Assembly: GCF_014132155.1 (NCBI RefSeq)
Contig: NZ_BLJQ01000010.1
Location: 1 to 64,000 of the forward strand
Length of the DNA: 64,000 nucleotides
Origin: Gluconobacter sp. Gdi
GTDB taxonomy: Bacteria; Pseudomonadota; Alphaproteobacteria; Acetobacterales; Acetobacteraceae
Direction: 5' to 3'
Part shown: positions 39,736 through 55,870 of the stretch, one piece after another
How the letters are laid out: every line of letters starts with the position of its first letter
Numbering within the stretch: the stretch's first letter is position 1
Made by a program: the position numbers and the translations under genes
Notes under the pieces: model-generated
Databases searched by the model: none
What the model saw: only the letters and a program-made list of their open reading frames with translations
Told to the model about the DNA's origin: nothing

Positions 39736-40431
39736 TCACACGCCGAACAGGCGGCCGATTCCGCCCGTGACGATCATCGCAACAATACCCCAGAACGTCA
39801 CACGCAGTGCTGGACGCAAAGGCGCCGCACCGCCGGCAAGCGCGCCAACGACGCCCAGAACAGCGAGAACCACGACGGACGTCAGGGACACGCCCCAGGA
39901 CACCCATGCCACAGGGGTCAGAACCGCCGCGAGCACGGGCAGCAAGGCTCCAGATGAAAAGGCGGTTGCCGAGGCGAATGCCGCCTGTATGGGTCTTGCC
40001 GCCGTGGTCTCGGACAGACCCAGTTCATCCCTGGCATGGGCGCCGAGTGCATCATGCTTCATGAGGGCGACGGCGACCTTGCGCGAGAGATCTCTATCCA
40101 GTCCTCTTTTCTGATAGATCCCAGCCAGTTCGGTGACTTCCCCCTCCCAGTCCGTGGCCAGCTCCTGTTTTTCGCGGGCGATGTCAGCGTGTTCGGAATC
40201 GGCCTGGGAACTGACCGAGACATACTCGCCAGCCGCCATGGACAGGGCGCCCGCGACAAGCGCGGATAGTCCCGCGATGAGAATGCTGCCGCGTGTCGCA
40301 TGAGAGCTGGCAACGCCGACGATGAGGCTGCCGGTCGACAGCGTTCCGTCATTGGCGCCGAGAACGGCCGCGCGCAGCCACCCCAGTTTCTCGACGGCAT
40401 GGCGTTCGGCCAGAGGATGGAGACGCGACAT
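39736..40431 (-). CDS. VIT1/CCC1-family transporter
   Basis: A 231-residue membrane protein of the vacuolar iron transporter family. The family signature is LRAAVLGANDGTLSTGSLIVGV and GALSMAAGEYVSV, with about five membrane segments split by a charged loop with Glu/Lys (EKQELATDWEGEV) that would bind metal. It would export or take up Fe(II) or Mn(II). The ATG at 40431 is followed directly by MSRLHPL; the upstream open frame is not conserved in character. Confidence 0.88.
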   Translation of the reverse strand: MSRLHPLAERHAVEKLGWLRAAVLGANDGTLSTGSLIVGVASSHATRGSILIAGLSALVAGALSMAAGEYVSVSSQADSEHADIAREKQELATDWEGEVTELAGIYQKRGLDRDLSRKVAVALMKHDALGAHARDELGLSETTAARPIQAAFASATAFSSGALLPVLAAVLTPVAWVSWGVSLTSVVVLAVLGVVGALAGGAAPLRPALRVTFWGIVAMIVTGGIGRLFGV

Positions 40432-40627
40432 AAGGTGACCTGTTGCTTCTGATAAATACAAACCAGATTTAGGCCCCTGTTTTTGCCACGGCAATAGGCA
40501 TTTTATTCTGATATTGCGAGCTATTTTCAATAGTATTTATATTTTCGTAAAATATTCTCTGTTCAGAATCCTGTCAGGTAAGCATGATATGGAAGTGAAT
40601 CCAGGGTTCCTTTTCACCGAGACGCAT

Positions 40628-41194
40628 ATGCCTTGTTCAACGCCGGACATTACCGACACCCTGCGCTACGACAGGCCGACGATCGTCCTTCACTGGACCA
40701 CCGCCTTTCTGGTGCTGCTTCAGTTTGCTCTTGGCGAAACCTGGAACTGGCCGGCAAAACCCGTCCATCATCTGATGGTGGTCGCGCATCTGACCGTCGG
40801 TATCCTGCTGACGGTGATCATGGCGTTCCGCATAGTCTGGCGTCTGACGAAAGGCCGGCATCTGTCGGACCTTCTCCGTCCAGTGGACCAGGTATGCGCT
40901 CTCGGGGCGGAGTACACACTCTATGGGCTGCTTCTGGCGGAAATTTTGCTGGGCTACTTCTGGCGATGGGGTGCCGGGCAGACGATGAGTTTTTTCGGCC
41001 TTCTGATCCCATCCCCGTTTGCACGGTTCCCGGCGGAAACCGTGACGTGGCTTCACACGCTGCATGAGTGGAACGCCTGGCTGATCATGGGCTTTGCGAC
41101 AGGCCATGGCGCAGCGGCACTTTTTCATCAGTTTGTCCTGAAGGACAAAGTGCTTGGACGTATGCTGCCGCAGTGTTCCTTGCCCCGTCAGTGA
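40628..41194 (+). CDS. Cytochrome b561-family membrane protein
   Basis: About 188 residues from the ATG at 40628, with four hydrophobic segments. The likely haem-ligand His residues are in IVLHWTTAF, HLMVVAHLTVG, LHTLHEWNAW and GHGAAALFH. These diheme inner-membrane proteins pass electrons between quinones and partner proteins. An in-frame ATG at 40589 is an alternative. The 5' region (40450-40600) is AT-rich and holds the promoter for this gene or the divergent VIT gene. Confidence 0.85.
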   Translation: MPCSTPDITDTLRYDRPTIVLHWTTAFLVLLQFALGETWNWPAKPVHHLMVVAHLTVGILLTVIMAFRIVWRLTKGRHLSDLLRPVDQVCALGAEYTLYGLLLAEILLGYFWRWGAGQTMSFFGLLIPSPFARFPAETVTWLHTLHEWNAWLIMGFATGHGAAALFHQFVLKDKVLGRMLPQCSLPRQ

Positions 41195-41344
41195 GGTCCT
41201 GTCCGTATGACTGGGCACACCGTGATGCTGGGCCGCCAACAAGCCAGAAGTGATGATTGCCTGTTGTCATCGGCAGCCACACATGAATGCCGGTGCATGG
41301 GAATTGTCTCCTGTCGAACGGGAAAATAAGAAAGTAACGACCGA

Positions 41345-42565
41345 ATGACGATCGTGCCGCGTGGCGTGGGACCAGAAAGACCGGGGTCGGTTCTTGAGGT
41401 GCTCCTGATCTTCCTCAGACTGGGCGTCACCTGCTTCGGCGGGCCGATCGCGCATATCGGGTATTTCCGGGACGAATTCGTCGTCCGGCGCCGGTGGCTC
41501 AATGAGCGCGCCTATGCCGATCTCGTCGGGTTGTGCCAGTTCCTGCCCGGTCCCGCGAGCAGCCAGGTGGGATTTTCCATTGGCCTGATGCGGGCCGGTT
41601 ATGCAGGCGGTCTTGCGGCGTGGGCGGGATTCACCCTGCCTTCGGCGCTTATCCTCATTCTCTTCGCCTATGGCGCGAACGCTGTTGCCGGTCCGAATGC
41701 CGCAGGACTTCTTCATGGATTGAAACTCGTTGCCGTCGCAATCGTGGCACAGGCCGTCTGGGGCATGGCGCGCACGCTGTGTCCGGACCGGGCGCGTGCT
41801 TCGATCGCGGTCACGGCCGCGCTCATCGTTCTGTTCGCCATCTCACCGCTTGCCCAGATCGCGGCCATCGTTCTCGGGGGCCTCGCCGGCCTGTGGCTTT
41901 GCCGCTCTGTGCAGACGTCAGATGGTGAGCATATTACAGTGCCCGTATCGCATCGTGCAGGGATCGTCGCACTGGCTCTCTTTCTGGCGCTGCTCTTCGG
42001 TCTGCCCGTTCTCGCCCGCCATGGCGCACCGGAGAGCGTTTCCCTGTTCGACGCCTTCTACCGGTCAGGCGCGCTCGTGTTCGGTGGCGGTCATGTCGTG
42101 CTGCCCTTGCTGCACGAGGCTTTCGTGACATCGGGCTGGGTCAGCGACGACACCTTTCTCGCCGGTTATGGCGCGGCACAGGCGGTTCCGGGGCCGCTTT
42201 TCACGTTCGCGGCCTATCTCGGTGCGATCGTCAGCCAATCTCCCCACGGTGTTGCCGGTGCCGCTTTCGGTCTTTTCGGCATCTTTCTGCCGGGCATCCT
42301 GGTCCTGATCGGAGCTTTGCCCTTCTGGGACACCTTCCGCAGCCAGCCGGCCGTTCGGGCGACGATGCGCGGCGTCAATGCAGCGGTCGTGGGCCTGCTG
42401 GGGGCGGCGCTCTATACACCGGTCTGGACGAGCGCGGTCAGGTCGGTGGCGGATTTCGGGATCGTGCTGGTCGGTTTCGTCCTGCTGACCGTCTGGCGGG
42501 CGCCACCCCTGGTGGTAGTCGGTATCAGCGCGCTGGGAGGGGTCGTCATTGGGCAGGTGGCATAA
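41345..42565 (+). CDS. chrA: ChrA chromate transporter
   Basis: A 406-residue protein of the CHR family, two homologous halves. Each half has the GGP/GGG and PGP elements: TCFGGPIAHIGYFR and FLPGPASSQVG in the first half; VFGGGHVVLPLL and AVPGPLFTFAAYLG in the second. It exports chromate from the cytoplasm and confers resistance. It follows the b561 gene on the plus strand, 150 bp away, without obvious shared control. Confidence 0.92.
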   Translation: MTIVPRGVGPERPGSVLEVLLIFLRLGVTCFGGPIAHIGYFRDEFVVRRRWLNERAYADLVGLCQFLPGPASSQVGFSIGLMRAGYAGGLAAWAGFTLPSALILILFAYGANAVAGPNAAGLLHGLKLVAVAIVAQAVWGMARTLCPDRARASIAVTAALIVLFAISPLAQIAAIVLGGLAGLWLCRSVQTSDGEHITVPVSHRAGIVALALFLALLFGLPVLARHGAPESVSLFDAFYRSGALVFGGGHVVLPLLHEAFVTSGWVSDDTFLAGYGAAQAVPGPLFTFAAYLGAIVSQSPHGVAGAAFGLFGIFLPGILVLIGALPFWDTFRSQPAVRATMRGVNAAVVGLLGAALYTPVWTSAVRSVADFGIVLVGFVLLTVWRAPPLVVVGISALGGVVIGQVA

Positions 42566-42628
42566 TGAAATGTTCAGTCAGCGACCAGCATCGACGCGTG
42601 ATCGCCATACCGTTTTTCAACGCACACT

Positions 42629-43072
42629 TCAATCATGGCGCGTCGTTATAAGGGCCATGCTTCGGCCGTTTCGTGTGTAAGTCAGCCAGAAAACGGACAG
42701 GCAGTTTACCCCCCACGCCTGCGCCATTGAGCGCAACGACCAATGCGTGGCATCGCGCGGTGTTTCTTCCGGGGTCATGCCGATCGTCTCTGCGATCTCC
42801 TCGTCGCCGATCGAACGCGGCGTCCCCGGCCGGGGTTCATCGTAAAGCCCGTCCAGATGGACCGTCGCAAAACGCCGGCGCCACTTGCCAACCGTGTTGA
42901 TGTCCGCGCCCGTCAGGTCACGGATCGCTTTGTTCTCATGCCCATTGGCGGCGGCAAGGACAATACGGGCTCCCCGCGCAAGCGCCTGGCCCGTCTTACG
43001 CGCCCTTGCCAGAGATTCCAGTTCCTGACGCTCCAATGCCGTCAGTTCGATCGCAACCGCCGTGCGTCCCAT
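42629..43072 (-). pseudogene. IS630-family transposase, truncated N-terminal part
   Basis: The first about 120 residues resemble the HTH-containing N-terminus of IS630 transposases: AVAIELTALERQELESL, ARGARIVLAAANGHENKAI, NTVGKWRRRFA and LYDEPRPGTPRSIGDEEI are typical. The DDE catalytic domain is absent, since the frame turns to unrelated sequence after QAWGVN and stops. It marks an old insertion immediately upstream of the three-gene module at 43256. Confidence 0.8.
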
Positions 43073-43255
43073 TCGATTGCCCCTGCCATCAGGATAATCA
43101 TCTAAACGTCTCGATCAGGACACTAGTTAGCTGATCGGATTGGTGCGGAGACTATCGCTTTCGCTCCGCCCCAAATTAGCTAGTCTTCCCACTAGGGTGG
43201 AGGGGCGGTACGGTGGTTTCTTGCTTAATTCGCGGGTGAGCAGGAGGGGGAATTG

Positions 43256-43543
43256 GTGGACGAGGACGAGACAGCAGCACCGGAGGAGGCGGTGGCGTTC
43301 GAAATGATCGCGGCCCTTGCCGGGCCGGAAATGGATGTGTTGGAAACGCCAGACGCGTTTCTGACCGGGGTCGCTGCTGCGCTCAACGCCTCCGATGATG
43401 TCGATGCCGATTTGGCCGCGATCCTGACGGATCATCTGTTGACCGTTATGCCGCACGAAAATGTGATTGCGAATGCCAAGGCGGCGATCCTGATGCTGGC
43501 CGCTGAGCGCGCGGCCACGGCCGAGGAAGCGGCCGATGGCTGA
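43256..43543 (+). CDS. Small acidic protein of the three-gene ATPase/nuclease module
   Basis: A 95-residue acidic, helical protein (N-terminal VDEDETAAPEEAVA, then an Ala/Leu-rich body). I do not recognise a domain. A good AGGAGGGGG ribosome binding site precedes a TTG (43253) or GTG (43256) start. The stop overlaps the ATPase gene by 8 bp, so the two are translationally coupled. Its place next to an SMC-like ATPase and a nuclease is the place of the middle component in ABC-three-component and Lamassu-like defence systems, but similarity to those components is unverified. Confidence 0.6.
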   Translation: MDEDETAAPEEAVAFEMIAALAGPEMDVLETPDAFLTGVAAALNASDDVDADLAAILTDHLLTVMPHENVIANAKAAILMLAAERAATAEEAADG

Positions 43544-46010
43544 TCCGACGCTGTTTCACTCCCTGACGCTCGAAGGCTTTCGCGCCTATCTTCAGCCTAA
43601 GACCTTCGACTTCAGCAAGAAGCCGAGCCTCGCGATTTTCGCGCCCAATGGTCTCGGCAAGTCGAGTGTCATCGACGCGCTCGAATTCCTCTTCTCCGAA
43701 CACGGCACGCTCGATCGGCTCGGGCAGCGTGCGCTCAATAACCAGGCCGGCCCGTCCGCGCTGGTCCATAATGGCGCGCAGGCGGCAGGGGTCGCGCCGG
43801 TGGTCAAGTTCACGACCATCACCGGCAAGGCCATCGCTGCGGGAAGCCGCACGGCGCTGGGCAATCCACGCCCGATCCATGCGGCAGCCACCGCAATGAA
43901 AGCCGGGTTCGTCGTCGCGCCGATCATCCGCGGTTATACGCTGCGGACTTTCGTCGAAGAGCAGAAGGCGGAGACCCGCTACAGCGACGTGGTGAGCTGG
44001 CTGCAGCTCTCGCCGCTGGTCGAGGTCCAGAAGAATCTCCGGCTGCTGCGCCGCGAGGTCAAGGCCGCTGCCGAGAGCACGACTGAGCAGGTTCGTCTCG
44101 TCGGGCAGCTACGCACCGAGACCGCCCAGGCCGTCCAGGCATGGGACGACGCGGCTGTGCTCGACTTCGTCAACACAAACGTCATTGCGCCACTCGATCC
44201 CGCGTTGACGATGGCCGCGCTCGATGCCGCAGACGCCGGCTATCTCGATATCGGCAAACGCGTCGCGGCCGAGGAGAAGAGCGTCGGCCTCGCCGGTCTG
44301 CGACAGGTCCGCAACTCGGTTATCGCGCTGTGGCAGAAGATTGTGCCCGAGGACGGCAGCGATCCCGAATATTCGGGCGCTATTGCCGCCTTCGACGAAG
44401 CGCTGGCGGTGCTGGCCGATGCCATGGCCACCGAAGCCAACGAGCGCGACAAAGCGGCGGACACGGTCTTCCGGTCGGTGTGGAAGGAAGCCGAGAAACT
44501 GTTTGCCGACGATGCTGCGGCTCCGGACAAATGTCCGGTCTGCGCGACGGTGATCGGCGATACCGCTGCCGGAAGCGTCCCCGCGATCCGCGATCTTCTG
44601 AAGACCCACCTCGATGATCTGCAAAACTACAACGACGCCAAGACCGCGCTGGACGACGCCGACAAAGCCACTATCAAGGCGCATAACCAGCTGATCGCGC
44701 GGCTTCCAGCGATGATCGATCATCTGTCCGAAGATGATCCCGACGGCTTCAGGGCAGCACTCATCGAGTATCAGGCCGGGGTTGTCGCATGGCCGGCCGC
44801 CGCCGCTCCTGCGTCCGCCGCGATCACCGCCGAGCTGGAGGCGCGCCTCGCCGGTCTCGACCAGGACATCGCCGACATCGAGGACAAGCAGGGCGAACGT
44901 ACCTGGGTGAAGGCAAAGGCGAGCATCGACCGACTGGTGAAGCTCCAGACGGATGTAGCGCTGGCGACACGGACGACCGAGGAACTCACCGCGCTGCACG
45001 AGTCTCTCGGCACCCAGGCCACGCTCGTCTCGGGCAAGATTCGCGAGAAGATTCAGTCGCTGCTCGACACCCTCCAGGCGCCGATGAACGACATCTACAA
45101 GGAAATCCAGGGCGACAAGGCCAGGCCGATCCGGCTAGAGCTGCCCAGGGAGGACGATACCAATCAGCAGCGCATGCATCTGGTCATCGACTTCGCCGAC
45201 AATCGTCAGGGCGTTGCGCCTGGCGGCTATCTGAGCGACTCCCAGATTCACTCGGTGGCGCTGGCGCTGCGCCTCGCGGCGATCAAGAAGTTCAACAGAG
45301 CCGCCCCGGTGATCGCGCTCGACGATGTCGTTACCTCCTATGACGCCGACCATCGCCGCGCGATCGGCGCGCTACTCGCCAAGATGTTCACCGACTGCCA
45401 GATCATCCTCGTCACCCATGACGAGCGGTTCTTCAATCACTTGAAGGATCAGCTCGCCGCGAAGGACTGGCAGTTCACGCGCATCATTGGGCTAGACCCG
45501 GCATACGGCCCGCGATTCGCCGACCATAAGGTGACAGACGAGATGATCGCCGATCGCTGGGACAAGGGCGAATCCGCTGCCAACGAGATGCGTCAGGCCG
45601 AGGAGGAATGGCTGCTCGGCATCGCTCGAGGCTTCGGCGTCAACGTCCGCATCCGTCAGCTCGAGAAGGCCTATTCCTACGAGCGATCCGAATTGGCCTC
45701 GGCGATCGGCGGCTTCCTCAGCGATATAAAATTGACGCCGGCCGACGTGCCCGGGGTCAACAACCGATTCATCACCAGCTTGGTGAAGGGCGACATCGAG
45801 AATTTCGGCAGCCACTTCCAGGATGCGCCCTATGGCTATGGCTCGATCGGCGACGAGAAGACACGCTGGGGCGAATTCAAAGCATTCTGCGGTCAATTCG
45901 AATGCGTGTGTGGCCGAACGAAGTATCAGAGGCCTTTCGGTCTTAGCAAGCCGGTCTGCGCTCACAATAAATGCGAGACACAATTCGAGTTCAAACCGCT
46001 TGTCGTGTGA
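43536..46010 (+). CDS. SMC/Rad50/RecF-like ATPase with zinc-hook CPVC and C-terminal Cys cluster
   Basis: An 824-residue ABC-type ATPase. Walker A is IFAPNGLGKSS (about 34-44). Coiled-coil-like arms follow, interrupted by CPVC (333-336), as in Rad50 zinc hooks. The C-terminal half has the signature-like LSDSQIHSVALALRLA (566-581), Walker B PVIALDDVVTS (591-601) and the H-loop LVTHDERFF (625-633). The last 180 residues extend beyond the ATPase and end in five Cys (785, 790, 792, 808, 813), probably a zinc ribbon. This is the architecture of SMC-like sensors in anti-phage systems. It is the second gene of the module and probably senses DNA ends or structures. Family name uncertain. Confidence 0.85.
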   Translation: MADPTLFHSLTLEGFRAYLQPKTFDFSKKPSLAIFAPNGLGKSSVIDALEFLFSEHGTLDRLGQRALNNQAGPSALVHNGAQAAGVAPVVKFTTITGKAIAAGSRTALGNPRPIHAAATAMKAGFVVAPIIRGYTLRTFVEEQKAETRYSDVVSWLQLSPLVEVQKNLRLLRREVKAAAESTTEQVRLVGQLRTETAQAVQAWDDAAVLDFVNTNVIAPLDPALTMAALDAADAGYLDIGKRVAAEEKSVGLAGLRQVRNSVIALWQKIVPEDGSDPEYSGAIAAFDEALAVLADAMATEANERDKAADTVFRSVWKEAEKLFADDAAAPDKCPVCATVIGDTAAGSVPAIRDLLKTHLDDLQNYNDAKTALDDADKATIKAHNQLIARLPAMIDHLSEDDPDGFRAALIEYQAGVVAWPAAAAPASAAITAELEARLAGLDQDIADIEDKQGERTWVKAKASIDRLVKLQTDVALATRTTEELTALHESLGTQATLVSGKIREKIQSLLDTLQAPMNDIYKEIQGDKARPIRLELPREDDTNQQRMHLVIDFADNRQGVAPGGYLSDSQIHSVALALRLAAIKKFNRAAPVIALDDVVTSYDADHRRAIGALLAKMFTDCQIILVTHDERFFNHLKDQLAAKDWQFTRIIGLDPAYGPRFADHKVTDEMIADRWDKGESAANEMRQAEEEWLLGIARGFGVNVRIRQLEKAYSYERSELASAIGGFLSDIKLTPADVPGVNNRFITSLVKGDIENFGSHFQDAPYGYGSIGDEKTRWGEFKAFCGQFECVCGRTKYQRPFGLSKPVCAHNKCETQFEFKPLVV

Positions 46011-46096
46011 GGAAAGCAAGGTTGAAGCGCTCTGCTATTGATGAGGAAAAACCGAGGAATGCCGACCTATTTCTTCACCGGGGGCAAGGTGAGGGT

Positions 46097-48421
46097 GTGA
46101 GAACTGTGCGCAGTCAAATTGAAACTACGGAACGCGATCCACGTAGCGCGCAGGGCCCCTGGAGCGATCTCGCGCTTCACACGATCGGTTGGCGCGCCTT
46201 TCAGGACCTTTGCTCGCAAGTCTGCGAAGTGGTCCTAGGGCGCCCCGTCGAAATATTCCGAGAAGCGCAGGACGGCGGTCAGGATGCGGTCTTTCTCATA
46301 CCCTCGCCAAATGGCGAGCAGCTCATCGGCACGATCCAGTGCAAGCACACTTCGGACGCCGGCAAAGCGTTGAAGCTCAGCGACCTCTCCGCTGAAATCG
46401 GTAATGTCGAGGAACTCGTTAAAGGCGGCCAGGCAGACACATACATCTTCATGACCAACATGAGCGTGGATGCGCCGGTTGCGGCCGCCATGCGCGCCAA
46501 ACTGCGCGAGTTCGGCGTTCGCAAGCCGCATATCCTGGGCCGCCAATACATCGTTCGGGTCATCAAGAGCAGCGCACGCCTGCGCGCCCTCGTCCCGCAG
46601 GTTTATGGTCTAGGGGATTTGACAGCGATCGTCGATGAACGGCTTAGCGAGCAGAGCCGCGCGCTGCTCGATAGCTGGATTCCGAAACTTCGTACCTATG
46701 TTCCAACTCAGGCGCATCGCGACGCCGTCAACGCCATCTCGGACCACGGCGTGGTGCTTCTGCTCGGCAATCCTGCGAGCGGCAAATCGGCGATCGGTGC
46801 GATCGTTTCAACGATCGCTTCGGAAAATCCCGACAACACCGTGTTGGCGCTGACCAGTCCACGCGATTTCGAGGCTGGCTGGAATCCCAACGATCCCGGG
46901 CGATTCTTTTGGATTGATGACGCTTTTGGCTCGAACGTGCTGCGCGACGATTACGTACAGGATTGGGCGTCGGCATTTTCGAAGCTGCGCGCAGCAATCA
47001 AGCACGGCAACCGTTTCCTGCTAACATCGCGCAAGCATATTTACGAAGCAGCTCGGCGCCGACTGGGGCAGCGTAATCTAGCGCAATTCGCTGATGGCAG
47101 CGCCGTGGTCGACGTCGGTGAACTTACCTTCGAAGAGAAGGCACAAATCCTTTACAACCACATCAATTTCGGCGAGCAGAGCCAAAGCTGGCGTTCGAAC
47201 GTCAAGCCGCATCTAGCCGCCGTTGCCGCCGTCGAAGAGTTCTTGCCCGGAATCGCTGAGCGGCTTGGCGACCCGAACTTTACCAAGGGACTGACGCCGC
47301 GCGAAAGTTCGCTCGTCCGCTTCATGGAGGAGCCGACCGAGCACCTTATCGACACGGTCAGCGCACTGGACGAGCAACTCCGGGCCGCGCTCTATCTCAT
47401 CTACGTCCATCAAGCCGGCTTCGATCCCAGCGATCATGATGCGGCGGCAGCGCAGGCGGTTTCGGACTTGACCGGTTTCACCCTAGCCAAGATCCAAGAT
47501 TGCTTCGCCGAATTGAGGGGATCCTTTCTCAAGCTATCCGGCACCAAATGGACCTTCGCGCATCCGACCATCTCCGATGCTCTGACAGAGGTTTTGCGGC
47601 AAAAACCTCATATGATGGCCGCACTGATCCGCGGCGCACCAATTGATACGATCCTCGGCAGCTTCACCTGCGAGGGATCGCCGCTCATTCGGGATGCCTT
47701 GGTGATTCCGTCCACGCTGGACGAAGCGCTGGTAGCGCGTCTCAGCCACACGCCGGACGAAAACCATCGAAATTGGATGCTGTTTCACTTCCTGTCCTAC
47801 AGGGCAAACGACGCGGTTTTCGCCAAACTAATCGGACAGTTCCCGGAGCTACTCAGGCGCTACTGCTGGCAGTCCGATCCCCTCGCCAATGACCCTCGGT
47901 TTCGTACCTACGGCCGCGCCCATCAATTCGGTCTACTCCCGGAAGATTTGCGGCGCGAGGCCGCAAGGAGCCTCGAATCCGCAGCGCTCTCTGACCTCGA
48001 TATGTCCTTCTTTGCCGAGAGGGGGATGCTCGCACTCATATCGCCGCTTCGTCTCGTCGGATTAGGCTTGGCGCTGCGAACCAAGCTTCTGCCCGCTCTT
48101 GAAGAGAAGATCGACGAGATCGCCGCAGATGCCGATCTGGATGAAGAGCCCGACAGCCACTTTAAGAAATTGCTCGATGCGCTCGAGCGCATCGAGGAGA
48201 TGGGCGTCGAGCTGGATGACGATGCGGTTGGCTTGGTCGGCGACGCGCGGGATCAGGTGAATCGGGCGGTAGACGGACTTGAAGAACGCAAGCGGGAGCG
48301 CGACGAAGATAACGAAGACGACACGGACTGGACCTATATCGTCACGCAGAAGAAAGAAGAGCCGTCACCGCCGGAACTTGCGGCTACGAAGCGCTCGGTC
48401 TTCGACGATGTCGATAAGTGA
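46097..48421 (+). CDS. Mrr-like restriction endonuclease fused to a STAND-type (nSTAND3-like) NTPase
   Basis: About 774 residues. Residues 25-165 form a Mrr-like PD-(D/E)XK nuclease domain: AFQDLCSQV, catalytic Asp in DGGQDAVF (63) and QCK in IGTIQCKHT (81-83). A STAND NTPase follows, with Walker A GNPASGKS (224-231), Walker B FFWIDDAFG (270-278) and an Arg sensor in FLLTSRKHIY (307-316). The C-terminal half is helical, like a repeat sensor, with a charged tail. The open frame extends to 45971 (ATG) and overlaps the ATPase; I favour a GTG at 46097, a TTG at 46022 is possible. Third gene of the module; likely the effector that cuts DNA on activation. Confidence 0.82.
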   Translation: MRTVRSQIETTERDPRSAQGPWSDLALHTIGWRAFQDLCSQVCEVVLGRPVEIFREAQDGGQDAVFLIPSPNGEQLIGTIQCKHTSDAGKALKLSDLSAEIGNVEELVKGGQADTYIFMTNMSVDAPVAAAMRAKLREFGVRKPHILGRQYIVRVIKSSARLRALVPQVYGLGDLTAIVDERLSEQSRALLDSWIPKLRTYVPTQAHRDAVNAISDHGVVLLLGNPASGKSAIGAIVSTIASENPDNTVLALTSPRDFEAGWNPNDPGRFFWIDDAFGSNVLRDDYVQDWASAFSKLRAAIKHGNRFLLTSRKHIYEAARRRLGQRNLAQFADGSAVVDVGELTFEEKAQILYNHINFGEQSQSWRSNVKPHLAAVAAVEEFLPGIAERLGDPNFTKGLTPRESSLVRFMEEPTEHLIDTVSALDEQLRAALYLIYVHQAGFDPSDHDAAAAQAVSDLTGFTLAKIQDCFAELRGSFLKLSGTKWTFAHPTISDALTEVLRQKPHMMAALIRGAPIDTILGSFTCEGSPLIRDALVIPSTLDEALVARLSHTPDENHRNWMLFHFLSYRANDAVFAKLIGQFPELLRRYCWQSDPLANDPRFRTYGRAHQFGLLPEDLRREAARSLESAALSDLDMSFFAERGMLALISPLRLVGLGLALRTKLLPALEEKIDEIAADADLDEEPDSHFKKLLDALERIEEMGVELDDDAVGLVGDARDQVNRAVDGLEERKRERDEDNEDDTDWTYIVTQKKEEPSPPELAATKRSVFDDVDK

Positions 48422-48668
48422 CGATCACCAGATGGGACGATCGGATACAGGCGTATAACATCCGCAACTTCGGCAACTCCTGCCCAGCGGCCGGAAGCAG
48501 CCTGAATGACTGCTCTTGTGAGACTACAACGTTCGTGCAGCCAGTAACGAACGTCTCAATCTGGTCGTTAATCATCATAAACGTGAGCACTGCGAATGGC
48601 AGCTTTCGATCACTCCTCCCCGATAACCGACATCCCGCTTTCCCCCCTTTAGGAGACGCTCTACCGAC

Positions 48669-49103
48669 TCAGGTATCGTGCCCTTCCACATCAGATCCCA
48701 CGTCCAGCCTGACCTCATCATCCAGCGTCGTCCCACGCGCCAACCTGCGTCCGACAGCCTCGACAAAGCCGTCATACCGCTCCCGCCCCTTGCTCTGTGC
48801 CGCAGCAAGAGCGGCATCCGGCAATGGCGGCGTGCTGGTCAACCAGAACCGCACGAACACGGCCAATGATTCGTTCGAAATCGTGACCCGTCGCTCCATG
48901 CGCTCCAACTGCCGCGTCATCCGGTCCAGCCGCCGAGCCAACGCCGCTTCCAACCGCTCCGGCCCGTCCGGCGACAGGAACGATGCCAGCGCCGTCTCAA
49001 CGATCAGCGCCTGCGGCACCTTCTTGCGGGCAGCGTAGGCAGCGAGCCTGTCGCTGAGATCGGCGGGTAGCCGGATCGTGTGTTTGATCCGCATGGCGCT
49101 CAT
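48669..49103 (-). CDS. Ribbon-helix-helix (CopG-like) protein paired with traG
   Basis: A 144-residue protein with an N-terminal RHH-type segment (HTIRLPADLSDRLAAYAARKKV) and a long helical tail with ERLEAALARRLDRMTRQLERM, a possible coiled coil. RHH genes in this position follow traG in Tn4371-like elements and probably regulate or help the coupling protein. The ATG at 49103 overlaps the traG stop (ATGA). Downstream, 48422-48668 contains no gene I can support. Confidence 0.85.
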   Translation of the reverse strand: MSAMRIKHTIRLPADLSDRLAAYAARKKVPQALIVETALASFLSPDGPERLEAALARRLDRMTRQLERMERRVTISNESLAVFVRFWLTSTPPLPDAALAAAQSKGRERYDGFVEAVGRRLARGTTLDDEVRLDVGSDVEGHDT

Positions 49104-51082
49104 AGTCCCAACCGATCGCCGGGATCGAGCGAAACCTGACGCGCGAGAGCCCGTTCCCCGCGCCGCAGGGTCTGTGCCCGTGTGGTATCGTCCTCGGATT
49201 CATCCTCGGGCGGGTCGAACTCATGCACCGGTTTCCTCGGCGCCTGCACCACCTCTTCCTGTTCGGGCAGTTCCGGCTCACGGCGGATGCCGGCATTGGC
49301 GGGATCATCATCCCCATTGCTGGCAGGAGGCGGCTGCACCACATCGGCCCAGTCCCCCGGCGGCTGCGGTCCGATGGGTGGCGTTCCTTCCGGGGGCGGC
49401 GGCGGTTCGAACCGGGGTAGCGGCAGGATGCGTGCGGCCAGTTCGGCGTCCTCGAAATACCGCGCCTTGCGCGCCCGGATCGGCGGGCAGCCGGAAACCA
49501 GCACCAGTTCCTCGTCGGGGGAAAGCTGCATGATCTCGCCGGGCGTCAACAGCGGCCGGGCGGTTTCGTGGCGCGTCACCATCAAATGCCCGAGCCACGG
49601 CGACAGTCGATGCCCGGCATAGTTCTTCGCGTCACGGATCTCGGTCGCGGTGCCGAGCGCGTCGGAAACCCGTTTGGCGGTCCGTTCATCATTGGTCGCA
49701 AAACTGACCCGGACATGACAGTTGTCGAGGATCGAATTGTTCTGGCCATAGGCTTTCTCGATCTGGTTCAGGCTCTGGCCGATCAGGAAGCTCTTGATCC
49801 CATAGCCTGCCATGAAGGCCAGCGCACTTTCGAAGAAATCCAGCCGCCCCAACGCCGGGAACTCATCAAGCATCAGCAGCAGGCGATGGCGGCGCTTCGC
49901 CTCCAGTTCCTCGGTCAGCCGGCGGCCGATCTGATTCAGCACCAAGCGGACCAGCGGCTTGGTGCGGCTGATATCCGAGGGCGGCACCACCAGATAGAGC
50001 GTTGCCGGATGACTGCCGGCGACAAGATCGCGGATCCGCCAGTCGCAGCGCCGCGTCACATGCGCCACCACCGGATCGCGATAGAGGCCAAGGAACGACA
50101 TGGCGGTGGACAGCACGCCCGAGCGCTCGTTATCGCTCTTGTTGAGCAGTTCCCGCGCCGAACTGGCGACCACCGGATGCACGCCCTTTTTGCCGAGATG
50201 AGGCGTGGCCATCATGGCGCGCAGCGTGGTCTCGATCGCACGCTTGGGGTCGGAGAGGAAATTGGCCACTCCGGCCAGGGTCTTGTCCTCCTCGGCGTAG
50301 AGGACATGCAGGATGGTACCGACCAGCAGGGCGTGGCTGGTCTTTTCCCAGTGGTTCCGCTTCTCAAGGGCGCCCTCGGGATCGACCAGCACGTCGGCGA
50401 TATTCTGTACATCACGGACCTCGCGCTCGCCACGCCGGACCTCCAGCAGCGGATTGTAGGCGGCACTAGCGAGGTTGGTCGGATCGAACAGCAGCACCCG
50501 GCCGAAACGGGCGCGCCAGCCGGCCGTCAGTGTCCAGTTCTCGCCCTTGATGTCATGGACGATGGCAGCGCCCGGCCAGGTCAGCAGCGTCGGCACCACC
50601 AGGCCGACGCCCTTGCCCGAGCGGGTCGGCGCAAAGCACAGCACATGCTCCGGCCCGTCATGGCGGAGATAGGCATCGCCGGAGCGGCCCAGCACCACGC
50701 CATCGGGCGCAAGCAATCCAGCGCGGCGGATCTCGCGCGGTTCGGCCCAATGCGCCGAACCATAGGTAGTGGCGCGTTTCTTCTCGCGGGCACGCCAGAC
50801 AGACATTGTGATCGCGACGACGACAGCGGCAATGCCGCCCGATGCCGCGATGTAACCGCCCGTGGTGAAGATGTCCGGCGCGTAGGCGTCGTAGGCAAAC
50901 CACCACCAGAAAAACTCGGGCGGATAATAGACCGGCCAGCCGAGCAGCGTGACCCACGGCGCGCCAAGCTGCGCCTGAAAGCCGAGCCGCCAGGCAGTCC
51001 ACTGCGTCGCGGCCCAGGTGAAGGCGAGGATCACGGTGCTGACCGCACACACCGAGCCCCAGAGGATCTTGGTCTGGTTCAT
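49100..51082 (-). CDS. traG: TraG (VirD4-like) type IV coupling protein
   Basis: A 660-residue coupling ATPase that delivers the relaxase-DNA complex to the channel. Two N-terminal membrane helices (about 5-25 and 70-90) precede Walker A APTRSGKG (about 149-156) and Walker B LLLMLDEFPALGRL, with the QSLNQIEKAYG and VSFATNDERTA segments of the VirD4 family. The tail after about residue 550 is Pro/Glu-rich. The ATG at 51082 is preferred to a GTG nine bases upstream. It is separated from trbB by 27 kb of cargo. Confidence 0.95.
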   Translation of the reverse strand: MNQTKILWGSVCAVSTVILAFTWAATQWTAWRLGFQAQLGAPWVTLLGWPVYYPPEFFWWWFAYDAYAPDIFTTGGYIAASGGIAAVVVAITMSVWRAREKKRATTYGSAHWAEPREIRRAGLLAPDGVVLGRSGDAYLRHDGPEHVLCFAPTRSGKGVGLVVPTLLTWPGAAIVHDIKGENWTLTAGWRARFGRVLLFDPTNLASAAYNPLLEVRRGEREVRDVQNIADVLVDPEGALEKRNHWEKTSHALLVGTILHVLYAEEDKTLAGVANFLSDPKRAIETTLRAMMATPHLGKKGVHPVVASSARELLNKSDNERSGVLSTAMSFLGLYRDPVVAHVTRRCDWRIRDLVAGSHPATLYLVVPPSDISRTKPLVRLVLNQIGRRLTEELEAKRRHRLLLMLDEFPALGRLDFFESALAFMAGYGIKSFLIGQSLNQIEKAYGQNNSILDNCHVRVSFATNDERTAKRVSDALGTATEIRDAKNYAGHRLSPWLGHLMVTRHETARPLLTPGEIMQLSPDEELVLVSGCPPIRARKARYFEDAELAARILPLPRFEPPPPPEGTPPIGPQPPGDWADVVQPPPASNGDDDPANAGIRREPELPEQEEVVQAPRKPVHEFDPPEDESEDDTTRAQTLRRGERALARQVSLDPGDRLGL

Positions 51083-51287
51083 GACGACCACCGATCAAGG
51101 GGATGGATCGATGTAACAGCAAGTCGAAAATTGCTTCGATCGTGCGCGCGGCTAACTTGGGATAAACAAAGGACGTAATGCCAATCATTGATGGCTGGGC
51201 GAGATTATGGCGTCCTTCTCTAATATCCGCCCCAGAGCCAGAACATTATAATTTCAGCTGAATATAAAATTATTCTGACGGTACTGC

Positions 51288-52106
51288 TCAATTTTTCTGC
51301 ACGGCACTCGCTTGGATAATATTTTCAGTTTTAGGAGGTGTCGGAGGGGCGGCCACACTAGAGTCCAGATCGTCACTATCTTCATTCTTTTGATCGTGAC
51401 CGTTCTTTCCTGTCGCCTTATTGGCGCCATAAATAGTTTCACTGTCAGTATGAAAAACCGGTTCCTGTACGCCAGATTCTTCTGTCATATGTTTCTCTTT
51501 ATCCGCAGGAACCTCGTGCCGTACGTGAAGCAACGACGGTGTAGGATGCACCGGATTACAGCGTTTAAGATCAATAACCTTCTGCGCCAAATCTTTCTGA
51601 GAACCGTCGAACCCTTCGCACCATTCTTCATAGTTCAGCAAGGGCATCCCCTTGCCACCATCTAGTCCACGCTTCTTGCCGGAATCGAAAGTATGAAAGG
51701 CATCCACTGCAACCCCGTAGTTCTCGATAAGGTGGATGCAAGAGGCCAACATTATAGCATCCCCGGTTCCGAGTTTTCGTTCGCCGCCCGTTTTCCGATA
51801 GGGCAAGTCCTTTAATCGAGCAGCCATCAACATGACGTTCGGGTTTAGATCCACGAGTCGAACAGCGTTACGGAAATCGCGCAGAAATTCTTCAAAACTC
51901 CCGTGTTTTCCGCCGATGAACGCGCTTGGGACTACTTCGGCAAGAGCAACGGAGCAGGTGTAGATGACTACCGATCCAGCCTTCGCTTCCGCTATATATT
52001 GTTCGACACCACTCAAATCGTACGCCGCAGTATTATTGCTAAAATACGCGTAGAATATACACGAATCCCAGAAGAGGTGAGCCTTTTCCCCCATGCCCAT
52101 TACCAT
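51288..52106 (-). CDS. PIN-domain protein with a long disordered tail
   Basis: A 272-residue protein. Residues 8-150 look like a PIN ribonuclease fold: first acidic site in HLFWDSCIFYAYF (Asp14), Glu in CSVALAEVVPSAF, and the later LGTGDAIMLAS carrying another Asp. The C-terminal 100 residues are charged and Ser/Asp/Pro-rich, apparently unstructured. It begins inside the stop region of the upstream gene (ATGGTAATGG, 7-bp overlap), so the two are coupled. Codon use and base composition are AT-richer than the surrounding backbone. Likely a toxin or nuclease effector; VapC-like function is inference. Confidence 0.7.
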   Translation of the reverse strand: MVMGMGEKAHLFWDSCIFYAYFSNNTAAYDLSGVEQYIAEAKAGSVVIYTCSVALAEVVPSAFIGGKHGSFEEFLRDFRNAVRLVDLNPNVMLMAARLKDLPYRKTGGERKLGTGDAIMLASCIHLIENYGVAVDAFHTFDSGKKRGLDGGKGMPLLNYEEWCEGFDGSQKDLAQKVIDLKRCNPVHPTPSLLHVRHEVPADKEKHMTEESGVQEPVFHTDSETIYGANKATGKNGHDQKNEDSDDLDSSVAAPPTPPKTENIIQASAVQKN

Positions 52107-52909
52107 TCCTCATCCATGTCATCGTACGGAGCCGGCTTAAAAGCTCCCTTCCATTTCGTTAGGTCGCCCATCTCTTCAAGCCTATTGATACGACGTATCT
52201 CCAAACGCACCGGCAATGGATGACGACCATCATAATGAGCGGCAGCATCAACCGAAACTCGCTGATTGAACTGCTCGCGCAAGGTCGGGATCTCATCCCT
52301 ATTCAATACGCAGTCGAGTTCTACGCCTCCATTCAAGATTAATTTGCCGCGCAAAAGTGTGCCGCGGGCATCAAGCTCCTGAAGAACACCTTCAAATGTT
52401 CCATAGGCTGTTCCAAGAAAGTATTCTGGGGATACAATAATATTATCATTTGCAATGGCACTGACATCTCTCACTCGATCAGCTAGGAACTCGTCAATCC
52501 GAATAATCCGTCCATGCGGAAAAGTGAGCTCTGCGTGGGAAAACGCTTTGGAACTACCACTAGTCAGCCGCCGCAGATTAGCAAAAATCTGTTTTGGCAG
52601 ATTCAATTCAGACACCGAATCTCCGTCATAAACTGACGAAATAATGTCAGAGAAAGAATCTATACTTGAGGAACTTCCTTTATTGCTTCTGGTGGAAATT
52701 TTTTCCCTAATCGTAGCGAGAGCACTGCCAATCTGGAGATCAGTGATAATATATTGGTGACGTTTTTTCTTGTTATTTAGACGATCAATACGCTTCAGAG
52801 AATCTACTACCGCACGCAATTTCATGACGAACACATCGGCCCTCACCAGGTCGTTATCGACCTCGAGCCCATGAATCTTCAGCGTTATTTTGTCTTTATC
52901 GCCCGACAC
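52100..52909 (-). CDS. Unrecognised 269-residue protein, partner of the PIN protein
   Basis: I do not recognise the family. The N-terminal half contains KITLKIHGLEV and a Lys/Arg-rich helix (DSLKRIDRLNNKKKRH), followed by YIITDLQIGSALATIREK and a Ser-rich linker (about 95-105). The C-terminal half has GTAYGTFEGVLQELDARG and ends in an acidic PYDDMDEEW. It precedes and overlaps the PIN gene, so it may act as an antitoxin, sensor or guide for it. AT-rich codon use relative to the backbone suggests separate acquisition. There is no predicted membrane segment. Confidence 0.5.
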   Translation of the reverse strand: MSGDKDKITLKIHGLEVDNDLVRADVFVMKLRAVVDSLKRIDRLNNKKKRHQYIITDLQIGSALATIREKISTRSNKGSSSSIDSFSDIISSVYDGDSVSELNLPKQIFANLRRLTSGSSKAFSHAELTFPHGRIIRIDEFLADRVRDVSAIANDNIIVSPEYFLGTAYGTFEGVLQELDARGTLLRGKLILNGGVELDCVLNRDEIPTLREQFNQRVSVDAAAHYDGRHPLPVRLEIRRINRLEEMGDLTKWKGAFKPAPYDDMDEEW

Positions 52910-53171
52910 AATCTGCGTTTACCCAACTCCATATCTCGTTAAGCATATCTTGAAGCATCCACTCGGTCGAGTGTCATAAATCTAAATGTGATCGGACCGA
53001 TGCCGGGAACCCGCCAAAAACTTGAGGTGTGCCATGAAAACCGGGGTGCGGAACGGGCTGGTCTGTGATTGCCCGAAATTTGGTTCTTTGAGCATGGTAC
53101 ACGTCGTCCCGAGTTCATGCGCAATCTGTGCAGAGAGATCGGTCTCGCGATTACAAAATAGTCGCTCGCTT

Positions 53172-54923
53172 CTAGATCCCGAGCCCCCGCTTCCGCCCGA
53201 AATTCCAGTCCACCGATCCACCCGGCGACAGGGTGCCGGAAACCTGCCGTCCGAGCTTCTGCTCCAGCGCCGGGCGCCACGGCACGAGCTGGAAGCCCAG
53301 CCCGTCATCGACCATGGCGAACCGGCCGGAGGACAGGTTGACCCGCTGGCGATAGACGCCCGAGACAATCTCGCCTTCCTTCGCGGGCCGATGCTCCAGC
53401 CCGGTCTGCGCCGCCAGCCTGGCCGTCGCCTGATCGAGATCGCGCTGGCGCAGGATGCCGATCAGGTCGGGCGCGAACACCACCCGCTCGCCCTGCCGCC
53501 GGGCCAGCCCCTCAGATTCCAGATGGTCGATCCGTTGCGTCATCGCCTCGTGGACCTCTCCGCCGAAGCCCGCATTGGCCAGCGCCGGATCCTTGGCGAG
53601 CAACTGGCGATCGAGCCAGGTCGCGCCCGGTGCCGTCACCTGCTCGGCCAGCGTGAAGTCCGAGCGGGTCGCCAGTGACAGGCGCTGCTGGCCCTTCGTG
53701 TCCTCCCAGCTCCGGGTCTCGACGACCGCGCCCGTCTTCGCGTCACCGGTCATGTCCAGATTAGGAAAGCGGACATGATGCGTCCGCCCGTCGGTCCCCG
53801 CGATGACCACGTAGCCCGAGCCCTTCAACTCGTCATCCAGCCCGCGCTCGACCAACCGGCCTATGACGGGATCGGCCAGCGTCTCGCCATGGATCGCAAA
53901 ACCCGCAACATCGGGTTCCGCCCCGCCGCCGGACATGGCGCGGTGCATGGTCTTGATGATGTCGCCCCGGATGGAGAGATCGCGCAGGGTCGCCTCCAGC
54001 CCCGGCTTGAGGGTCCAGCGTGCCACCCCGACCGGTTCGGCGAGACCAAGCCCTTCCAGCTTGGTCGCCCGGCCGACCAGCAGGCGCCGCAGTTCCGGGT
54101 CTTCACCGCCCGCGCCCGGCCGCAGATCGACGATACCGCCCCTTTCGTCGCTGATGTCCTGCAACGCGCGATCGAGGCTGGTCCAGCGGTCGGCGCCGAT
54201 CTCGGTCTCCAGGGCGGTGCGGATTTCCTGTTCGCTGCGCGGGCCAAGTTCCAGCGTCACCCGTTCGGCGGCGCGGTCGCGCAGGCCCTGGCTGATATAG
54301 GCGCGGCTGATGACCAGATCCTTGCCATCATCAGCGACACCGCGCACCAGGATGTGGACGTGCGGATTGTCGGTGTTCCAGTGATCCACCCCCACCCAGT
54401 CCAGCTTTGTGCCGAGGTCGCGCTCCATGTCCTGCATGAGTTCCCGCGCGAAGCCCCGCAGATCCTCCATCCGTACCGCGTCCTCGGGCGAGATGATGAA
54501 GCGGAAATGGTGACGGTCATCTTCACAACGTTCCGCGAAGGCCTTGCTGTCCGCCTCATCAGACCCGGCATCGAACAGATGGGCCCTGGCCCCATCGCGG
54601 GTGACGCCCTCGCGCCTGAGATAGGCGATATGCCGGGCGAGAGGCGCGGAGCGGAAGCGCGAGCCCTGCTGGCGGACGACCCGCGCCTTGACCACGACGC
54701 GGCGGGCATTGCTTCGGAGCCGCATGGACAGCGCCGCGCGCCGCCCGCGGCCGAAACGGGAACCGCCGCCTCCCCTACCCTTCGCGCCGAACCGGGTCCC
54801 GGTATGACCGGCCCTTTTCGCGGCACGCATGACCTCGCCGACGAAGGATTTCGGACGCGCGCCCTGATTGCCATGCTGGATGCGTCCGGGCCGGACAGTC
54901 AGGCCGTCATCGCGCGTCGCCAT
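53172..54923 (-). CDS. Relaxase with DUF3363 C-terminal domain
   Basis: A 583-residue relaxase of the VirD2/MobP-like type seen in Tn4371-like elements. The metal-binding His triad is visible as VDHWNTDNPHVHILV (His181, His188, His190), preceded by HFRFIISPEDA. A basic N-terminal part (KGRGGGGSRFGRGRRA) should contact oriT. The DUF3363 region is the C-terminal half. It nicks at oriT and is carried into the recipient through TraG and the Trb channel. I use the ATG at 54923 (MATRDDG); the frame is open to 55034. Confidence 0.92.
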   Translation of the reverse strand: MATRDDGLTVRPGRIQHGNQGARPKSFVGEVMRAAKRAGHTGTRFGAKGRGGGGSRFGRGRRAALSMRLRSNARRVVVKARVVRQQGSRFRSAPLARHIAYLRREGVTRDGARAHLFDAGSDEADSKAFAERCEDDRHHFRFIISPEDAVRMEDLRGFARELMQDMERDLGTKLDWVGVDHWNTDNPHVHILVRGVADDGKDLVISRAYISQGLRDRAAERVTLELGPRSEQEIRTALETEIGADRWTSLDRALQDISDERGGIVDLRPGAGGEDPELRRLLVGRATKLEGLGLAEPVGVARWTLKPGLEATLRDLSIRGDIIKTMHRAMSGGGAEPDVAGFAIHGETLADPVIGRLVERGLDDELKGSGYVVIAGTDGRTHHVRFPNLDMTGDAKTGAVVETRSWEDTKGQQRLSLATRSDFTLAEQVTAPGATWLDRQLLAKDPALANAGFGGEVHEAMTQRIDHLESEGLARRQGERVVFAPDLIGILRQRDLDQATARLAAQTGLEHRPAKEGEIVSGVYRQRVNLSSGRFAMVDDGLGFQLVPWRPALEQKLGRQVSGTLSPGGSVDWNFGRKRGLGI

Positions 54924-55168
54924 GGCCCGCTCTCCGCTTCGATGTGTGCCTGACGGCGCCCGGATCGTTGAAAAGATTAGGAAAAATGCCCGGACAGCCG
55001 CAGGCGGTGCGTGGTGAGAGGACAAATTCCCCAATCAAACCAACCACATGCAGCCCCGAACGGGCACTGCTTTTACCTTGCCGTCCTTCCCTCCGTTGCC
55101 TGCCTCCCCCAGCACCCCATCCCCAAGGCACCCATAGGCCGCCAGCGCCCGATGGACCGGAACGGGGA
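54924..55168. other. Gap upstream of the relaxase gene, expected place for oriT
   Basis: 245 bp between the relaxase and the transglycosylase genes. It contains a short CCCG-AA-CGGG hairpin (about 55057-55067) and a stretch of C/A-rich sequence, but no repeat that matches a known nick site to my eye. oriT usually lies beside the relaxase gene, so this gap, or the one at 52910-53171, is the place to test. Confidence 0.3.
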
Positions 55169-55870
55169 TCATCGGCGCGCCTCCCCATGTCCTGACGCGA
55201 TAAACAGCCCGGCTGACTGCGGTGCGAGCGCCGTCCAGTCAGTCGGGCGGGAGCCAGATGAACGTGCCGGATCGTGCGCGCTTTCGGCAGGCCGGGACGC
55301 ATCGCCCATGCGCAGGAATGAGGCCGGAAAGAGGGAAGAGTCCTGCCATGATGGTGCAGCCAGAGCGCCGACCGCGATGTTATCGGCGAGTGGAAGAGCC
55401 AGCCGCGCGCTGACGGATGCGACGTAGTTCCGCGTCTCGGCAGGCAACGGTCGGCCGGTTGCCAGATGTTCGTCATAGCGCGCGGGACCGGCATTATAGG
55501 CGGCCAGAAACCCGGCCTCGCCGTAGCGATCCCGCATCCAGCGCAGATAGGTCGCACCCGCCAGAATATTGTCGTGCGGGTCGAACGGATCCTCGCCAAG
55601 GCCAAGCGACGTGCGCAGGCTGGCCCATGTGCCGGGCATCACCTGCATGAGCCCCATCGCGCCCGCCGATGACACGGCCCGCGCGTCGCCCCTGCTCTCC
55701 GCATGCAGGACGGCAGCAATCCATGAGGCCGGAATCTGCGCGCGCGTGGCCGCCTCCGTGATCATGTCGGCGTATGGATCAGCGTCCGCCATGCGAACGG
55801 GTGATACTGCAACCAGCACTGCAACCAGTGCGTTCGCGACAAGATCGCGAACCTTCCTACCGCCGATCAT
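55169..55870 (-). CDS. Lytic transglycosylase of the conjugation system
   Basis: A 233-residue SLT-type lytic transglycosylase. A hydrophobic N-terminal leader (VANALVAVLVAVSPV) suggests export. The catalytic Glu is in VLHAESRGDARAVSSAGAMGLMQVM, here the AESRG and GAMGLMQ parts; the AYNAGPARY segment follows at about 125. The C-terminal 60 residues look unstructured. It opens peptidoglycan for channel assembly. Its start overlaps the end of the DUF736 gene by 14 bp. Confidence 0.92.
   Translation of the reverse strand: MIGGRKVRDLVANALVAVLVAVSPVRMADADPYADMITEAATRAQIPASWIAAVLHAESRGDARAVSSAGAMGLMQVMPGTWASLRTSLGLGEDPFDPHDNILAGATYLRWMRDRYGEAGFLAAYNAGPARYDEHLATGRPLPAETRNYVASVSARLALPLADNIAVGALAAPSWQDSSLFPASFLRMGDASRPAESAHDPARSSGSRPTDWTALAPQSAGLFIASGHGEARR

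Follow-up and report, generated by a model that had tools for sequence, protein, structure and literature searches.

ABC-three-component (ABC-3C) systems are placed inside the Lamassu superfamily, for which zinc hooks and Mrr-type effectors are listed and from some systems of which LmuC is absent, according to PMC10586767; two further papers describe nSTAND3 as the NTPase of Avs5 (PMC12931631) and HamC as a companion of Hachiman (PMC8565338). Here we report on a locus that recalls several of these systems, carried by Gluconobacter sp. Gdi within a stretch of 64,000 nucleotides (nt; contig NZ_BLJQ01000010.1, positions 1 to 64,000, hereafter the window). Its three genes run on the forward strand and encode a small acidic protein (gene 1), a Rad50/SMC-like ATPase (gene 2) and an Mrr-type nuclease fused to an nSTAND3 NTPase (gene 3; Table 1). 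A sequence-only reading of the window had described these proteins and proposed them as one candidate three-gene defence system; the observation is confirmed, and the interpretation is partly supported. Genes 1 and 2 form a conserved pair behind which the third gene is exchanged, and the trio is a real, clade-specific, co-transferred cassette built from this pair and one of its exchangeable partners. The literature searched, some of it available in excerpt and with preprints and most subscription papers outside its scope, holds no description of the pair or the trio.

In design, the locus resembles Lamassu, ABC-3C and DdmABC: a zinc-hook SMC/Rad50-like ATPase, a small partner, and an exchangeable effector that can be an Mrr-type nuclease. 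The CPxC hook, kept in gene 2, is unspecific, as Rad50 shares it (PMC10586767), and the exchangeable gene beside the SMC-like gene has its counterpart here in four downstream families whose effector role is presumed. LmuB models are the best PADLOC matches of gene 2 (4e-23), and the nuclease part of gene 3 (residues 35-132) weakly matches one LmuA model (E 0.006, 14.6 bits). The LmuB match is partial, at 80.4 bits to PDLC03859 against 260-450 bits for ten matches in 200 genomes (selected at E <= 1e-40, this being the only LmuB model so compared), and gene 2 aligns with those ten over 146 columns, or one ATPase half. PADLOC yielded no LmuC match for gene 1 (at E <= 1) or gene 3, and Pfam at E <= 1 no ABC-3C middle-component or effector domain in either, in a library presumed to include such models. 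PMC10586767 gives LmuB about 650 amino acids (aa) and a Glu-to-Gln change in Walker B, whereas gene 2, at 824 aa, carries a further domain and the Cys cluster at its C-terminal end and has a Walker B ending in DD; the third gene here also stands last and brings its own STAND domain. On the bit scores, the short alignment and the lack of an LmuC match, Lamassu membership was rejected. The design is like Lamassu and the family, by sequence, is not; the three genes may work as Lamassu does. One of the ten PDLC03859 matches lies elsewhere in the window's own genome, where an ATPase at G000:C23:8900-11176 (L116) matches an LmuB model at 9.9e-80, and a probable Lamassu-like system may thus coexist with the cassette.

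Gene 3 has its own closest relatives. The Mrr-nSTAND3 layout, taken by the sequence-only reading as undescribed, is already listed by PADLOC as the candidate PDC-S73, with which gene 3 aligns over residues 33-368. Its score is 94.7 bits against 463 for the close PDC-S73 protein of a pair-only locus, L045; its C-terminal half lies outside the match, its tail differs, and a full-length match was not obtained. The absence of a full match to any named system, which the same reading had expected, is borne out, the partial ones being LmuB for gene 2 and PDC-S73 and LmuA for gene 3. The PDC-S73 protein of L045 (3502-5847, reverse strand) lies near the pair and ends in acidic residues followed by DDLPF, an ending that resembles the C-terminal tip of SSB. 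Avs proteins likewise join an N-terminal effector to a STAND NTPase, and the C-terminal half of gene 3 could be a sensor; however, no PADLOC Avs model is among the gene 3 matches, and the Avs5 effector is Sir2 (PMC12931631), whereas that of gene 3 is of Mrr type. Gene 2 shares Rad50-like ATPase halves and a zinc hook with Rad50-Mre11/SbcCD, and no Mre11/SbcD-type gene was found among the ten window neighbours scanned, although such a partner may lie elsewhere. HamC (DUF3223), the accessory of type II Hachiman, adjoins the pair in other genomes, where hamAB was not sought, but not in the window.

The three genes and the cassette

Gene 1 begins at TTG 43253 (96 aa) or GTG 43256 (95 aa) and is strongly acidic, as had been noted (isoelectric point 4.05; 21 D+E against 2 K+R). 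It had no match at E <= 1 in Pfam, NCBIfam or PADLOC, nor at 0.001 among PHROGs. Gene 2 is the SMC/Rad50-like ATPase that the sequence-only reading saw in it: Pfam finds SMC_N (2.3e-17) and AAA_23 (3e-10), PDB sequence searches returned SMC/Rad50 entries only, and PHROGs gave an SbcC-like match (2.5e-13), the only one for any of the three genes. NCBIfam returned nothing at its cut-offs for genes 1-3. Across an alignment of 31 sequences the Walker A, the CPVC hook, the LSDSQ signature, the LDD Walker B and H628 are invariant or nearly so, and the C-terminal Cys cluster likely binds zinc; this alignment and that of ten gene 3 sequences both count the window's own.

Gene 3 opens in its 774-aa form at GTG 46097, 86 nt past the end of gene 2, and the frames of genes 1 and 2 overlap by 8 nt; the earlier statement that all starts overlap or nearly touch thus stands for the first junction and fails for the second. 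An alternative in-frame ATG at 45971 would make gene 3 overlap gene 2 by 40 nt, and conservation, which sets in only past roughly residue 22 as counted in the 774-aa form, speaks against this longer start. No promoter- or terminator-like pattern was listed in the junction (46011-46096) by a scan that overall did no better than shuffles, and Rfam at gathering scores found nothing in 40000-52000. The nSTAND3 domain is firmly matched and Mrr_cat lies slightly under its Pfam cut-off (20.5 against 21 bits); the nuclease residues Asp63 and Lys83, singled out from the window alone, proved invariant, and the STAND Walker A and W-x-D-D are kept across the ten aligned sequences. PDB sequences gave nothing significant for gene 3.

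The ratio of non-synonymous to synonymous substitution (dN/dS) is 0.09-0.33 for genes 2 and 3 in six comparisons and 0.13-0.67 for gene 1, which is under weaker constraint. Because whole-frame homologues occur in many genera and these ratios are low for genes 2 and 3, the frames are more than chance; all three are genuine genes, conserved and maintained by purifying selection.

Seven genomes hold the complete trio, namely that of the window and those of three Acetobacter, Sphingobium, Paracoccus and G433 (L088); together they represent at least three families. Its pair-to-gene 3 spacing is 52-95 nt. The Paracoccus DNA matches the window at 43258-48424 (79.8%), and the segment shared with Sphingobium is of similar extent (Table 1). 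Matches from pair-only loci span 43242-46000 (L045) and 43245-46003 (L046), and one from Methylocella with gene 3 only (L033) spans 46147-48453. Synonymous divergence (dS) of gene 2 and gene 3 is alike in Paracoccus (0.95/0.87) and G433 (0.84/0.80) and less alike in Sphingobium (0.29/0.17). The gene 3 copies from trios group in a single clade (78/99), which 79% of bootstrap trees contain.

The pair across genomes and its downstream slot

Relatives of gene 2 were sought in one scan of 84,980 species' genomes with two peptide patterns from a four-sequence alignment, which misses relatives without those patterns. It gave 40 loci, of which six were dropped: L065 is frameshifted, L076, L077, L080 and L081 are partial, and L082 is a chance match. 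Genes in the fetched loci were called by a custom dicodon script rather than a standard caller. Every one of the 34 full-length ATPases has a gene 1 homologue ahead of it, identified by tblastn in 33 loci and by clustering in L072, and the two genes are called with the 8-nt overlap in 30 of these loci. The copies in L071 (Mycobacterium sp. KBS0706) and L080 (Bacillus sp. 2B10) are near alphaproteobacterial ones, and these may be mislabelled or contaminated assemblies. Three pattern-based scans of viral contigs found no relative of gene 2 or gene 3.

We define the slot as the gene directly downstream of the ATPase, on the same strand and within 250 nt. Four families together fill it in 21 of 34 loci, with gaps of -26 to 95 nt. 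The commonest is DUF3223/HamC, in nine (L051, L059, L060, L064, L069, L070, L073, L074, L078), followed by HD-CE with HATPase in six (L050, L052, L056, L061, L066, L075; the L052 copy is a 138-aa fragment and that of L056 is cut by the contig end), Mrr-nSTAND3 in five (L043, L044, L047, L049, L067) and PDC-M54A in one (L079). The remaining 13 hold none of the four, and these include L057, whose contig ends 315 nt on, and L058, which has another 96-aa gene. PADLOC matches HamC and PDC-M54A strongly and Mrr-nSTAND3 partially, and gives HD-CE/HATPase only E 0.0044. Of the five HD-CE proteins shown with a C-terminal end (one of them contig-cut), three finish in acidic residues and F. Upstream of gene 1 in L050 (5935-7499), and as like-sized genes in L052, stand a DUF1403 gene and a homologue of the SMC partner ScpB, on the same strand.

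The 39 rows of the ATPase tree are these 34 loci together with the window, G433, two plasmid copies and G006, a repeat of L061. At minimum, 14 changes of slot state are required on this tree; shuffled states require 21 on average, and none of 200 shuffles came down to 14. The "none" state in this tree includes L031 and L032, which have a HamC remnant and an SbcD-like gene, and two loci from the genome samples, L091 (G006) and L106 (G557), apparently duplicate L061 and L067, having the same proteins. Mrr-nSTAND3 is limited to one starred clade of ten rows, seven with it and three without. Two of these three, L045, at 93% identity to the window, and L048, have a 306-aa protein 180-188 nt upstream of gene 1, in which we read an Mrr-like D...QCK pattern; the L045 copy had no match in Pfam (E <= 0.001) or PADLOC (1e-6). 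The third, L046, does not have this upstream protein either. In L072, a methyltransferase gene lies 25 nt upstream.

Farther downstream of the pair, AbiEi/AbiEii, SIR2-HerA and SbcD/SbcC-like genes recur. Varying subsets of HamC, AbiEi/AbiEii, SIR2-HerA and SbcD-SbcC-like genes stand in similar order in L051, L060, L064, L069, L070, L073, L074 and L119. Eight loci have an SbcD-like gene near the pair, beside which lies an SbcC-like gene in five, another gene of 1160-1173 aa in two and a contig end in one. Five full-length plasmid copies of the ATPase were found, all from Bradyrhizobium; HamC fills the slot in L119, is shortened in L120 and is a remnant in L031, L032 has an SbcD-like gene 158 nt downstream and nuclease/UvrD-annotated genes nearby, and nothing lies close behind the pair in the incomplete annotation of L121.

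Three ATPases more distant from gene 2 (22-25% identity; L004/L092, L006/L093 and L037) are each preceded by an acidic protein of 71-83 aa overlapping by 4 nt. The pair of L092 lies directly behind a type III restriction gene and that of L093 behind a T5orf172 gene, in a row that opens with an MmeI-type gene; L037 has no restriction-type neighbour, so that two of the three are in restriction operons. Aligned as profiles, these ATPases and gene 2 share 722 columns (probability 99.5), the profile comparisons being uneven in depth (37, 3, 10, 3 and 1 sequences). Against the gene 1 profile, the small proteins that precede them reach 27.5 when taken as a set (probability only 50%) and 18-23 when scored one by one (4-20%). 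Of 150 random small proteins used as a control, three were themselves a gene 1 or a distant partner, and the other 147 reached at most 16.8. These scores weakly suggest that the distant small partners are homologous to gene 1. An alignment of the distant ATPases had no match in 289 genomes, a result uninformative as to absence.

Gene 3 apart from the pair, and the surroundings of the cassette

Because a search by way of the ATPase favours loci that have it, rates for gene 3 use loci found independently of it. Forty plasmid records matched, and ten of the 30 matches listed were examined; nine of those listed are Piscirickettsia plasmids with the same match, represented by one, and the weakest listed (20-24% identity) were left out. 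Genome samples gave 4 of 288 others in the class, 5 of 298 others in the order, two of these being weak partial matches (G192, G060) and not counted, and 2 of 397 others in the phylum, both already seen. The 17 independent loci are ten plasmid records and seven genomes, several of the copies being truncated or broken.

The pair is directly upstream in two of the 17, G433 and G557 (the L067 contig). Elsewhere gene 3 follows an OLD-type ATPase (L034, 4-nt overlap), AbiEi/AbiEii (L083, 4-nt gap), a MarR-like and a 253-aa protein (L033, 4-nt overlap), PDC-S06 (L107, 8-nt overlap), Avs2 (L037, 141 nt) or a 276-aa protein (L085, 4-nt overlap), and in several independent loci it stands alone. L037 also has a distant pair, separated from gene 3 by about 1 kb and lying on the opposite strand, and L059, a locus found through the ATPase, has the order pair, HamC, distant gene 3. 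One three-gene system, as first proposed, is at odds with these neighbourhoods: Mrr-nSTAND3 is directly behind 5/34 ATPases and the pair directly before gene 3 in 2/17 independent loci, which is the pattern of homologues mostly alone that the sequence-only reading itself had named as telling against it. A fixed three-gene system was rejected for this reason.

The tail of gene 3 is remarkably well conserved, whatever gene lies before it. After an ill-conserved stretch, 18 of 20 rows of the gene 3 tree close with a form of S-I-F-D-D-V-D, among them rows only about 31% identical to the window; the tree omits L042/L094, L080, L087 and L108 (fragment or broken) and keeps L084 and L086 though they are N-terminally short. 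The pattern occurs in 34 of 1215 called proteins, duplicate loci counted, all of them of the gene 3 family or its broken pieces. Two readings of the tail were rejected: a docking signal specific to the pair, because it is also retained where gene 3 lacks the pair, and a tail common to gene 3 and the other slot proteins.

In the window, the cassette lies between a chromate transporter and a row of conjugation genes (Table 1), next to a transposase-like remnant, in agreement with the earlier placement in mobile cargo. Among the loci of relatives, the DNA match extends into this remnant only in the three Acetobacter loci. Between the transfer genes, at 51288-52909 on the reverse strand, a PIN-like protein of 270 aa (Pfam just below cut-off) adjoins one of 269 aa, possibly as a toxin-antitoxin or defence pair.

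Table 1. Coordinates of the cassette, its motifs and its neighbours in the window
Feature	Position	Strand	Basis
Gene 1 (F1), small acidic protein	43253..43543	+	Open frame; homologues precede ATPases
Gene 2 (F0), Rad50/SMC-like ATPase, 824 aa	43536..46010	+	Pfam and alignment
Walker A of gene 2, FAPNGLGKSS, residues 35-44	43638..43667	+	Invariant at almost every position across 31 aligned sequences
CPVC zinc-hook motif of gene 2, residues 333-336	44532..44543	+	C333 and C336 in 31/31
C-terminal Cys cluster of gene 2 (C790, C792, C808, C813)	45903..45974	+	Four Cys in 31/31
Junction between pair and gene 3, 86 nt	46011..46096	+	Pair-only and gene-3-only DNA homology stops nearby
Gene 3 (F3), Mrr-type nuclease joined to an nSTAND3 NTPase, 774 aa; C-terminal half unassigned	46097..48421	+	Pfam, PADLOC, alignment
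Nuclease core of gene 3, D63 to Q81-x-K83	46283..46345	+	D59, D63, Q81, K83 in 10/10 aligned
nSTAND3 domain of gene 3, residues 201-358	46697..47170	+	Pfam E 1.4e-35
Conserved tail of gene 3, RSVFDDVDK	48392..48418	+	18/20 tree rows
Cassette extent shared with Sphingobium	43128..48567		92.5% DNA identity
Chromate transporter, before cassette	41345-42565		
Transposase-like remnant, neighbour outside the unit	42629..43072	-	Pfam HTH_32; "IS630" is the earlier reader's name, unchecked
Conjugation genes, after cassette	48669-55870		
Type IV secretion system (T4SS) coupling protein	49100-51091		
Relaxase with DUF3363	53172-54923		
SLT transglycosylase	55169-55870		

Coupled core or neighbouring systems

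Based on these observations, we tentatively favour a modular cassette for defence, probably against viruses, in which the pair forms the core and the gene behind it occupies an exchangeable effector slot. Gene 2 would be a small Rad50-like ATPase that dimerises by way of the zinc hook, with gene 1 as its constant small acidic partner, and this core would recognise abnormal DNA, such as the ends, forks or hairpins of an invader, in an ATP-dependent manner. The gene directly behind would act as an exchangeable effector or helper, here a STAND-regulated PD-(D/E)XK nuclease that could be triggered by the core or by its own STAND domain; once triggered, gene 3 may oligomerise and cut DNA, with the invader stopped or the cell killed.

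The constancy of gene 1 before every full-length ATPase, together with the four families in the slot and its repeated changes on the tree, argues for this modular reading, as does the trio in seven genomes, with DNA homology that ends near its edges in Sphingobium and Paracoccus. That genes 2 and 3 have diverged to a like degree in two of the three comparisons over greater distance is consistent with it, and so are the pair-only relatives L045 and L048, which have the Mrr-like 306-aa protein upstream instead. The recurrence of AbiE, SIR2-HerA and SbcCD-like genes downstream, the distant pairs behind restriction genes and the methyltransferase gene of L072 point the same way. Several observations weigh against it. 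Gene 3, found far oftener without the pair and with a STAND domain of its own, may need no partner, and its tail is kept with or without the pair. Pairs presumably work without the slot families in the 13 loci that lack them. The STAND-type Pfam matches of PDC-M54A are below their cut-offs, and for some occupants of the slot (PDC-M54A and HamC) it is uncertain whether they should be called effectors. Defence islands also give tight same-strand spacing without mechanistic coupling.

In a rival explanation, two autonomous systems are stacked: the pair would be one, and the other would be gene 3, acting by itself as an Avs-like STAND nuclease that recognises a phage protein with its C-terminal half; adjacency would then bring co-expression and co-transfer only. 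We rank this explanation slightly below the coupled modular model and regard it as a serious contender. Only two of the 17 independent gene 3 loci have the pair, the others lying behind OLD, AbiE, MarR-like, PDC-S06 or Avs2 genes or alone, and the layout of gene 3, with an N-terminal effector, nSTAND3 and a C-terminal half, matches that described for Avs5 (PMC12931631). Stacking sits less easily with a trio kept together at 52-95 nt in at least three families and with trio copies of gene 3 that form one clade (78/99).

An unlikely explanation is that the pair serves DNA repair or the maintenance of mobile elements, with defence genes merely gathering around it. Its Rad50-like features, the SbcC-like PHROG match, the 13 of 34 pairs without slot families, the five full-length plasmid copies, the SbcCD-like genes nearby and the nuclease/UvrD-annotated genes of L032 would suit such a role; its recurring placement right next to four other families, mostly defence-listed ones, and the distant pairs in restriction operons do not. 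That the locus is a true Lamassu or ABC-3C system with an unusual gene order is very improbable: the CPxC-hooked SMC-like ATPase, small partner and nuclease effector, Lamassu effectors of Mrr type being on record (PMC10586767), and the LmuB and weak LmuA matches are outweighed by the low PDLC03859 score, by 146 aligned columns against 722 with the restriction-associated relatives, and by genes 1 and 3 matching neither LmuC nor ABC-3C components.

Returning to the modular reading, a broader extension of it is conceivable, if doubtful. The pair may represent an unrecognised class of defence, a two-gene Rad50-like core with an unvarying small acidic partner, found mainly in alphaproteobacterial genomes and plasmids and, as a distant branch, in restriction operons of type III and MmeI type; it would acquire its weapon by exchanging the gene that follows it. 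Mrr-nSTAND3 would then be a general second-line rider, coupling, often through overlapping starts, to the pair, OLD, AbiE, PDC-S06 and Avs2. The case also carries a warning, as adjacency within one clade does not prove a system. If the modular reading is true, the Lamassu design would have been arrived at a second time with different sequences, by combining a constant Rad50-like sensor with weapons that can be exchanged. The natural swaps, the same core with four third genes and the same nuclease-STAND gene behind at least five partners, make it directly testable whether the core switches on the protein encoded next to it or the two are simply carried together.

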